DNA of 64,000 nucleotides from the NCBI RefSeq assembly GCF_002156875.1, contig NZ_NCSY01000004.1:124001-188000 (forward strand), read 5' to 3'. The position numbers were made by a program, and so were the translations under genes. Below, one piece after another: positions 61,667-63,820 of this stretch (within the stretch, counting starts at the first letter, position 1; each line of letters opens with the position of its first letter). Below the pieces are notes generated by a model. The model saw only the letters and a list, made by a program, of their open reading frames with translations, did no database searches and was not told the DNA's origin. The DNA comes from Bacillus sp. EAC. Lineage in GTDB: Bacteria > Bacillota > Bacilli > Bacillales > Bacillaceae_G.

Positions 61667-62257
61667 TTGAAAAAAATATCGTTTCAAGGTGGAATGGCTA
61701 GTGGCAAGACAACTTTGATAAAACGTATTGAAAATAGGTTAAGAGATAAAGACATTATTTTTACATATGAAAATCCTTTTCCTGTTGTAGAGAAACGTAA
61801 GAAGTTGAATATAGATATTCACACAGAGGAAGGGTTTCTGGCCAATCAGCGATTATTTATCGAAAATGAAATTGATCGATTTAATCAACTACCAGATTGT
61901 AAAGTTATATTTGATAGAGGACCTGAGGATATAGAATTTTACACAATACATTTTCCGATTGCAAATGGAGTTAATTGGCATATTGAATCTGACTTGGAAC
62001 AAGAACTAATAAAGCTCCGTAAATGTCGTTCAGATTTGATTATCTATTTAGATGCAAGTGAGGAAACACTGAGAAAAAGAATGTTAAACGATAAAAATCG
62101 TTCTCGAAACTCGTTTGAGCAAAACATGAAATTGTATCAATTTGAAAGAGAATGGTTTAGTCAATTTAATACGACATTTGTAAATGTTGATAAAAGAACT
62201 CCAGTTGAAATGGAAGATTGGATGATTAAATTTTTTAAAGAACATAATTTTTTATAG
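61667..62257 (+). CDS. P-loop kinase-like protein (deoxynucleoside/thymidylate kinase-type)
   Basis: A 196-residue P-loop protein: Walker A QGGMASGKTT at the N-terminus, FDRGPEDIEFYTIHFP in the position of the DR(S/Y) motif of deoxynucleoside kinases, and a LID-like RKRMLNDKNRSR segment. It probably phosphorylates a small molecule, perhaps a nucleoside or an antibiotic. TTG start at 61667 behind GAGAGGAAGTAAGGCG. The specific substrate is unknown. Confidence 0.75.
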   Translation: MKKISFQGGMASGKTTLIKRIENRLRDKDIIFTYENPFPVVEKRKKLNIDIHTEEGFLANQRLFIENEIDRFNQLPDCKVIFDRGPEDIEFYTIHFPIANGVNWHIESDLEQELIKLRKCRSDLIIYLDASEETLRKRMLNDKNRSRNSFEQNMKLYQFEREWFSQFNTTFVNVDKRTPVEMEDWMIKFFKEHNFL

Positions 62258-62287
62258 TTTCACATTACTAAATGTTAATAAAATTCC

Positions 62288-62316
62288 TTGACCAAAAATA
62301 AACTATTTAATAAACT
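62288..62316 (+). promoter_or_regulatory. Promoter of the leader-peptide/UMP kinase unit
   Basis: -35 TTGACC (62288-62293), 17-base spacer, -10 TAAACT (62311-62316). The predicted start near 62323 leaves a leader of about 190 bases before the kinase gene. Confidence 0.6.
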
Positions 62317-62370
62317 TACTTAAGGAATATTTAGACTAGTTAAAAAACAAATGAAGGAGGGAAAGTAAAA

Positions 62371-62445
62371 TGAAAAATGTCAGATTTTCTTTTGAAAGTG
62401 GTTGGTATTTTCATTTATCTTTCTCTCTATCGTATTTTTTTTAGA
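62371..62445 (+). CDS. Leader peptide (24 aa) upstream of the UMP-kinase paralogue
   Basis: An ATG with a near-perfect ribosome site (GAAGGAGGGAAAGTAAA) opens a 24-codon frame beginning MKNVRFSFESGWYFHLSFS, rich in Phe, Ser and Tyr, that ends TAG. The stop codon lies directly at the foot of a terminator hairpin. This is the layout of ribosome-mediated attenuators that control antibiotic-resistance genes in Firmicutes. It is not annotated by length-based gene finders. Confidence 0.65.
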
Positions 62446-62480
62446 ACTAATGACTATCAGTCTTTAGTTCTTTTTTTATG
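62443..62480 (+). terminator. Intrinsic terminator in the UMP-kinase leader (probable attenuator)
   Basis: AGAACTAATGACT / AGTCTTTAGTTCT: outer AGAACTAA/TTAGTTCT stem and inner GACT/AGTC stem, followed by TTTTTTT. It lies between the leader peptide and the kinase gene, about 35 bases before the kinase start. Confidence 0.75.
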
Positions 62481-62511
62481 AATTTAATTACGAATGAGAG
62501 GGGAAAATTTA

Positions 62512-63249
62512 GTGACAAAATATAAACGTGTACTAATTAAACTTAGTGGTGGAGCTTTAGCGGATCAAGATGGAAATAGTTTTGGTTCAGATCGATTAGA
62601 ACATATTTCTAATGAAATTTTATCCTTAGTAAATTTGGGTGTAGAAGTATCTTTGGTTGTAGGTGGAGGAAACATATTTAGAGGGAGTTTAGCTGAAAGT
62701 TGGGGAATTGATAGAGTAGAAGCTGATAATATTGGAACGTTAGGTACTATTATTAATAGTTTAATGTTAAGGGGAGTATTAAAAAGTAAGATAGATAAAG
62801 AGGTACGGGTGATGACTTCTATTCCAGTAAATGCTGTTGCTGAACCTTATATAAGATTACGAGCTGTTCAACATCTAAATAAAGGATACATTGTGATTTT
62901 TGGTGGGGGAAATGGTCAGCCTTTTGTTACGACAGATTATCCTAGTGTTCAACGAGCAATCGAAACAAATAGCGATGCAATATTAGTGGCAAAGCAGGGA
63001 GTGGACGGAGTTTTTACAAGTGATCCAAAACAAAATATTGATGCGAAAATGTATAGTAATCTAAATTACAATGACGTAGTTAAAAATAATATTAAGGTGA
63101 TGGATCAATCTGCGCTATTACTTGCTAGAGATTATAAAATGCCAGTTCACATTTTTAATTTTGATGAATCTGGAGTAATGGAAAGAATCTGTTTAGGAGA
63201 GCACATTGGGACAATTATAAATCAGGGTTTAACCATTCTTAGTAAATAA
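62512..63249 (+). CDS. UMP kinase (PyrH) paralogue
   Basis: A 245-residue amino-acid-kinase-family protein with PyrH features: YKRVLIKLSGGALAD (phosphate loop), VVGGGNIFRG, DNIGTLGTIINSLML (the MGMLAT region), IFGGGNGQPFVTTDY and GVDGVFTSDP. Start GTG at 62512 follows AGAGGGG by 8 bases; the ATG at 62494 overlaps that site. The usual pyrH lies in the rpsB-tsf-frr cluster, so this is probably a second copy. Canonical residues such as the LSGEA loop are altered to LSGGA. The leader peptide and terminator upstream suggest inducible expression. Fosfomycin-kinase-like enzymes share this fold and are the alternative. Confidence 0.85.
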   Translation: MTKYKRVLIKLSGGALADQDGNSFGSDRLEHISNEILSLVNLGVEVSLVVGGGNIFRGSLAESWGIDRVEADNIGTLGTIINSLMLRGVLKSKIDKEVRVMTSIPVNAVAEPYIRLRAVQHLNKGYIVIFGGGNGQPFVTTDYPSVQRAIETNSDAILVAKQGVDGVFTSDPKQNIDAKMYSNLNYNDVVKNNIKVMDQSALLLARDYKMPVHIFNFDESGVMERICLGEHIGTIINQGLTILSK

Positions 63250-63582: not shown

Positions 63583-63777
63583 ATGAAAAGAAATAAAAAT
63601 ATGGCTCTAATCACATTATTAATTTGCTTTTTACTTATTTTTCTAATTGTCACTGCCATTCGTCACATTACAATCTACATGGTGTTTAGTTCTGGAATTA
63701 TGCCATTTATTATTATAGGAATAGTAAGTTTAGCCATTGTATTTCTATATTTAAGGGGTTTAAATCAAAGAAGATAA
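63583..63777 (+). CDS. Small two-helix membrane protein (64 aa)
   Basis: A 64-residue protein with two hydrophobic segments (about 7-26 and 33-57) and basic ends (MKRNKN and GLNQRR). The function is unknown. The ribosome site GAAAGGGGCTG is good, and a terminator with CCACCAACA..TTTGGTGG and a T run follows. Confidence 0.65.
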   Translation: MKRNKNMALITLLICFLLIFLIVTAIRHITIYMVFSSGIMPFIIIGIVSLAIVFLYLRGLNQRR

Positions 63778-63791
63778 TACGAACAAGACTA

Positions 63792-63820
63792 ATCCACCAA
63801 CAATTTGGTGGTTTTTTTAG
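63792..63820 (+). terminator. Intrinsic terminator after the small membrane protein
   Basis: ATCCACCAA / TTTGGTGGT stem followed by TTTTTTT. Confidence 0.85.

Follow-up and report, generated by a model that had tools for sequence, protein, structure and literature searches.

A self-closing leader ribosome-binding site ahead of an accessory UMP kinase gene in Bacillota: a candidate attenuator in which the ribosome may act as antiterminator

Bacillus sp. EAC carries two pyrH-type genes, one of which lies behind a short reading frame and a transcription terminator. What might such a leader do for the gene that follows it? We analyzed the locus within a window of 64 kb (the whole stretch of DNA studied) and compared it with loci of relatives. 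Positions 62288-63249 begin with a promoter, behind which a leader frame of 24 codons, equipped with a strong SD, precedes a terminator hairpin and the second UMP kinase gene (Table 1). An earlier note on this DNA had described these parts, including the stop codon on the terminator base and the separate SD of the PyrH paralogue, and the letters confirm them.

Table 1. Features of the leader and the accessory kinase gene, in window coordinates.
Feature	Position	Strand	Basis or remark
Sigma-A-type promoter TTGACC-17-TAAACT	62288..62316	+	sequence; -35 TTGACC 62288-62293, -10 TAAACT 62311-62316, spacer 17 nt
Leader SD AAGGAGGG	62354-62361	+	sequence
Leader ORF, ATG 62370 to TAG 62442-62444, 24 aa, MKNVRFSFESGWYFHLSFSLSYFF	62370..62444	+	stop TAG sits on terminator base
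H1 (RBS-sequestering hairpin), 5' arm: leader SD through start codon	62350..62375	+	duplex with 62408-62434, predicted folds
H1, 3' arm (anti-SD), within last part of leader ORF	62408..62434	+	permutation tests, SD pairing counts
8-T run between H1 and terminator	62435..62442	+	sequence; candidate slow site for RNA polymerase
Intrinsic terminator: hairpin 62443-62471 + T-run	62443..62477	+	predicted fold
SD of UMP kinase gene	62497..62504	+	sequence
Accessory UMP kinase gene (pyrH paralogue)	62512..63249	+	TIGR02075 and PDB chain 2jjx matches

The accessory kinase and its locus

The pyrH-like frame ends at 63249 and has possible starts at 62494 and 62512; the latter, a GTG behind the SD, is most likely the true start. 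The product scores 299.9 bits against TIGR02075, the family of bacterial PyrH UMP kinases (cut-off 243.9), and by family membership would be a UMP kinase. The closest solved structure is PDB chain 2jjx (442.8 bits over residues 2-243), which we take to be the UMP kinase BA1797 of Bacillus anthracis. A canonical pyrH, 43% identical to the accessory copy, was identified on contig C11, so the gene studied here is not the only one in the genome. The earlier proposal of a translation-controlled attenuator anatomy before an extra pyrH is supported. Among eight sequences compared, the motif NGQP occurs in six paralogues (Bacillota and Actinomycetota), whereas the two canonical copies (that of the source genome and that of one congener) have TGNP; the difference may affect substrate choice.

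Only the source genome had an extra copy in a survey of 13 genomes of the genus, and the other 12 had one match each (43-45% identity). Counting the source genome each time, we identified the accessory copy in 3 of 19 genomes of the family sample, 35 of 397 of the order sample (E up to 1e-85) and 44 of 398 of the class sample (1e-80). Fredinandcohnia quinoae and a Halobacillus are among the carriers. When 40 other carriers were compared with the family model, 39 also showed, among the matches listed, a higher-scoring match (332-346 bits) that is taken as canonical pyrH. One genome (G509, loci L170 and L173) has two accessory-type copies and, among the matches listed, no canonical pyrH above the cut-off. 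Remoter relatives of the kinase (53-59%) come from Actinomycetota and one Chloroflexia MAG. A single plasmid-borne copy was found, on a Paenibacillus plasmid record.

Directly upstream of the kinase promoter lies a TTG-started gene for a small P-loop protein resembling nucleotide or nucleoside kinases (61667-62257, plus strand). Its product matches AAA_28 at 36.7 bits, with Thymidylate_kin just above and dNK just below the cut-off. This gene is absent from the shared neighbor groups listed for 80 loci, which were at most the 25 largest groups and were judged by eye. The widely shared non-kinase groups at these loci were either genus-level (Kribbella, Frankia, Halobacillus/Thalassobacillus) or consisted of an SDR-like gene found in 15 loci. 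On the other side of the kinase gene, and also on the plus strand, a hydrophobic frame of 64 residues (63583-63777) without a Pfam or NCBIfam match is followed by a symmetric terminator (63794-63811).

A consensus scan of the window returned the promoter as one of 18 promoter-like sites, no excess over shuffles (20.6), and did not list the terminator hairpin. The case for the locus therefore rests on comparison with relatives and not on consensus scores. The predicted fold of 62425-62486 has an energy of -13.9 kcal/mol (z -4.7), and among the 60 retained leaders, 30 are preceded by a promoter-like site (at least 9 of 12 matches). No Rfam family reached its gathering score anywhere in the window, and a PyrR attenuator (RF00515) was not identified at the locus; positions 62250-62540 gave two sub-threshold matches, both to other families and on the minus strand. 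Two PyrR-type elements already occur elsewhere in the genome.

Conservation and specificity of the leader

A tblastn search gave matches at 177 loci. Canonical copies were removed, as were 42 loci (L056-L094 and L096-L098; 41 actinobacterial and one from a Chloroflexia MAG), leaving 101 Bacillota upstream regions that were non-redundant. Of these, 72 contained a candidate leader followed by a terminator, and 60 were retained after hand selection. L053 was skipped for want of a start codon. The 12 dropped candidates (L021, L124, L132, L145, L146, L159, L162, L166, L167, L171, L176 and L179) had mostly weak or absent leaders by our judgement; L021 was dropped because the script had picked a later terminator, and L145 and L146 were doubtful. 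No retained leader precedes the gene in 41 of the 101 regions (29 without a candidate, 12 dropped), so the leader is dispensable.

When starts were chosen by SD strength alone, with no hand selection, no stop codon interrupted frame 0 before the terminator in any of the 62 cases, as compared with 9 open cases for the +1 frame and 29 for the +2 frame. In the retained set, the first base of the stop codon ranges from 3 nt 5' of the hairpin to well inside or past it, and the frame end is near enough for a ribosome to cover the terminator in all 60, partly as a result of selection. Seven of the 72 candidates stop 3-37 nt short of the terminator, and all seven are among the 12 dropped. The layout recurs before the kinase gene in 35 distinct leader clusters. 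The relatives in these leader statistics are not independent samples. Its presence in 60 retained upstream regions lifts the layout above chance. By this comparison, what has been conserved in the leader is its open frame and its design, not its sequence. Conservation upstream of the paralogues, which the earlier note had named as a check, holds for the open frame and the layout and fails for the peptide.

The layout is rare off target in the DNA scanned. The criteria were an SD, an open frame, a hairpin and a duplex of -15 or better between SD and frame end. Of 46 further terminator-like sites in the window none satisfied them, and of 267 in 400 kb of the source genome one did, where the frame is of low complexity. 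At -14 or better, a scan of loci that were partly redundant (602 kb, 493 off-target sites) gave three places. We judged all three to be spurious, as one has no fitting gene (L025), one is repetitive (L031) and one lies inside the kinase gene (L145).

The 72 candidate peptides are unlike one another, and the C-terminus is likewise not conserved, which disfavors one specific drug-arrest peptide. Inspection of the same 72 peptides by eye revealed no shared run of one regulatory codon of the trp or his type. Leader length ranges from 15 to 43 codons, and both H1 and the terminator fall about equally often in each phase of the frame. The first stop codon in the 60 leaders is TAG in 19, TGA in 18 and TAA in 18, and in the remaining 5 there is none before the kinase start. 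Given that peptide, phase and stop codon are all free, and given a leader dN/dS of about 0.67 (from only 10 overlapping pairs), the leader is probably kept for the act of translation and not for its peptide.

The self-closing ribosome-binding site and the search for an antiterminator

What the earlier note missed is the feature that we regard as central: according to predicted folds and swap tests, the SD and start codon of the leader are sequestered by the end of its own frame. At the source locus, the duplex of the two H1 arms has an energy of -23.4 kcal/mol. Across the 60 leaders, the SD/start region pairs with its own frame end at -19.9 kcal/mol and with swapped ends at -14.8 kcal/mol (z -13.5, 0/5000 permutations). 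The same test gave z -10.4 (0/20000) for the 35 cluster representatives and z -14.2 (0/5000) for all 72 candidates with none dropped, so the result stands. These tests, on which we rely, used the whole 45 nt before the terminator. Separate tests of H1 and of the terminator were biased in favor of success, their arms being preselected best partners, and were not relied on. The leader SD is hidden in the predicted fold in 59 of 60 leaders; by position, -12 to -6 of the SD are paired in 49-58 leaders and those of the start codon in 42-45. In the leader alignment the 3' arm of H1 stays unaligned. By this comparison of relatives, H1 covaries. The SD of the kinase gene showed no pairing beyond chance with the pyrimidine stretch of the leader (z -1.0 and z -0.3).

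We searched the 60 leaders for a partner of the terminator 5' arm. Compared with swaps, none was found in the anti-SD (z +2.7), the middle of the frame (+0.9), the upstream stretch (-0.2), the whole leader (+0.7) or the stretch after the terminator (-0.6). The SD region pairs slightly more strongly with its own terminator arm than with swapped arms (-2.67 versus -2.25 kcal/mol, a difference of 0.4 kcal/mol; z -3.0, 6/3000), but these predicted energies fall far short of what a helix would need to rival the terminator. Thus, no credible antiterminator was found in these leaders.

The 10 nt before the terminator have a T fraction of 0.55 in the 60 leaders, versus 0.30 at 112 background terminators. 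This is partly a by-product, because the anti-SD itself is pyrimidine-rich. The motif TTNTTT, presumably of the NusG type, is not enriched (24 of 60 leaders; shuffle mean 19.2, maximum 28).

A possible race between ribosome and polymerase

We propose, with a probability of roughly one half, that the leader is a cis-acting transcription attenuator controlling the accessory UMP kinase, in which the ribosome itself would be the antiterminator, a race would be read out and shortage of UTP would be the likeliest signal. Sequence comparison provides the open frame that reaches the terminator, H1, the terminator, the lack of a credible antiterminator and the freedom of the peptide. Translation of the leader, the action of the ribosome, the race and the UTP signal are what we infer. 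Because H1 and the terminator can both form, with no credible antiterminator found, a ribosome near the frame end would be the plainest means of preventing termination. Transcription from the promoter would expose the strong leader SD, and the time for ribosome loading would end once polymerase makes the last third of the frame, when H1 would shut the SD and start codon. Without timely loading, or with a ribosome that has finished and gone, the terminator would form and transcription would stop. A pioneer ribosome at the frame end during synthesis of the hairpin would cover the hairpin 5' arm and permit read-through into the kinase gene, and H1 would hinder later rounds. What the switch would measure is how fast polymerase moves in comparison with the first ribosome: UTP shortage would slow polymerase in the U-rich stretch and lead to more UMP kinase. 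The U-rich last 10 nt and the function of the gene make UTP shortage the most natural signal; we would rank it first and drug-slowed ribosomes second.

In E. coli pyrBI, a U-rich stretch precedes the terminator and UTP is sensed, read-through rising as UTP falls. What the leader studied here shares with it is an open frame that extends as far as a terminator ahead of a pyrimidine gene. We know of no self-sequestering ribosome-binding-site hairpin in pyrBI, which comes from another phylum. For published systems we draw on excerpts of the sources cited. In those on pyrBI, translation of the leader peptide close to the terminator prevents its formation (PMC5021804, PMC4824070). The tlrB (yxjB) leader of B. 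subtilis resembles ours in having a short leader ORF with a ribosome at its end that blocks the terminator, and in that leader translation must begin before a hairpin that sequesters an SD closes (PMC6851288). That hairpin hides the SD of the tlrB gene itself, whereas H1 would hide the SD of the leader; in addition, unlike here, an RYR arrest peptide is reported as conserved for tlrB and NusG pauses have been mapped (PMC6851288). At msrDL-msrD, similarly, a ribosome at the msrDL stop codon obstructs the terminator, but the drug-sensing peptide has six residues and UAA is prevalent (PMC10314930), as against 15-43 codons and even stop usage here. The vmlR leader of B. subtilis likewise has a leader ORF and a terminator in a Bacillus; there, however, antiterminator and anti-antiterminator compete with the terminator (PMC9226507), and no such helix was found in our 60 leaders. 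In the literature searched, mostly outside subscription journals, we found no description of a leader before the accessory UMP kinase or of the regulation of this kinase, and "pyrH" and "uridylate" are absent from the main text of a 2010 attenuator survey (PMC2965389). Ribosome-mediated attenuation as such is known. What appears new, in the literature searched, is that an accessory UMP kinase is preceded by a conserved leader whose ribosome-binding site is self-closing, whose peptide varies and for which we found no antiterminator.

A precedent for the proposal comes from E. coli, in which ribosomes repress terminators a few bp past the stop codon. Against it, the same source describes that termination can be efficient within the first 100 bp of a coding region, and a leader as short as this one might therefore leave its terminator working (excerpts of PMC4824070). 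Transcription has been reported to outrun translation in B. subtilis, and attenuation coupled to a ribosome would for that reason need a polymerase pause (PMC7858274, in part). Also counting against the proposal are the share of the anti-SD in the T-richness, the TTNTTT motif without enrichment, the slight pairing preference between SD region and terminator arm, the two PyrR-type elements of the genome and the 41 regions that lack a retained leader.

The same device, with the ribosome as antiterminator, could instead respond to a ribosome stalled near the leader end by an antibiotic or translation stress, the UMP kinase being a product of the stress response. We consider this rather unlikely. 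The anatomy would be identical up to the terminator, and the excerpts on tlrB (PMC6851288) and msrD (PMC10314930) provide precedents. In Kribbella, 16 of 19 loci also have a translational GTPase close to the related kinase gene, some 1.5 kb past its start. The one compared with protein models, that of L073 (4629-6587), best resembles Otr(A) and tetracycline ribosomal protection proteins, with scores (741 and 704 bits) below both cut-offs (900 and 775). However, this neighborhood belongs to one genus, and to our knowledge no resistance role has been described for this kinase. Peptide, C-terminal phase and stop codon are free in our leaders, in contrast to the conserved arrest motif of tlrB and the UAA bias of msrDL in the excerpts cited. 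A switch that gauges ease of initiation or the supply of free ribosomes is a distinctly improbable reading. With ribosomes plentiful, the leader would be caught in time, ahead of H1 closure, and the kinase would be switched on, tying nucleotide supply to translation capacity. Both the SD and the start codon lie within H1, so that the gate would be whether a ribosome loads while they are still exposed, but the sequence hardly separates ribosome supply from a reading of polymerase speed.

A classical attenuator with a competing antiterminator (of the erm/vmlR/bmrCD or trp type) would have the same general layout of leader ORF and terminator. In its favor, the SD region pairs somewhat better with its own terminator arm than with swapped ones (z -3.0), although the energy is just -2.7 kcal/mol. 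Given five tested stretches with no partner beyond swaps and no regulatory codons or peptide in common, we find it very improbable. The likeness to erm, vga, vmlR and bmrCD attenuators drawn in the earlier note is not borne out, since the 60 leaders have no credible competing helix and neither the peptide nor its C-terminus is conserved. Thus, as far as the alignments indicate, the leader is probably neither an antiterminator switch of the erm/vmlR type nor a fixed arrest peptide. Short distances from stop codon to terminator are reported for B. subtilis genes (PMC7858274, in part), as would suit a tiny gene whose terminator is not regulated and does not govern the kinase. That the layout recurs before the kinase in 35 leader clusters and hardly elsewhere in the scanned DNA, and that H1 covaries, makes this reading extremely improbable.

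The preferred reading, a race between first ribosome and polymerase, may extend beyond this locus. We suggest, as a tentative generalization that we hold at less than even odds, a widespread sensor of transcription speed (UTP) in Bacillota that would be independent of the peptide and would compare first ribosome with polymerase by means of a leader ribosome-binding site that closes co-transcriptionally. If this is true, a regulator based on ribosome-polymerase timing has been kept across many Bacillales genera, although work on B. subtilis (PMC7858274, as excerpted) argues for ribosome and polymerase being largely uncoupled. The leader would then be a natural, peptide-free reporter of ribosome-polymerase timing, and would reveal what use is made of a spare UMP kinase whose type already has a solved crystal structure.
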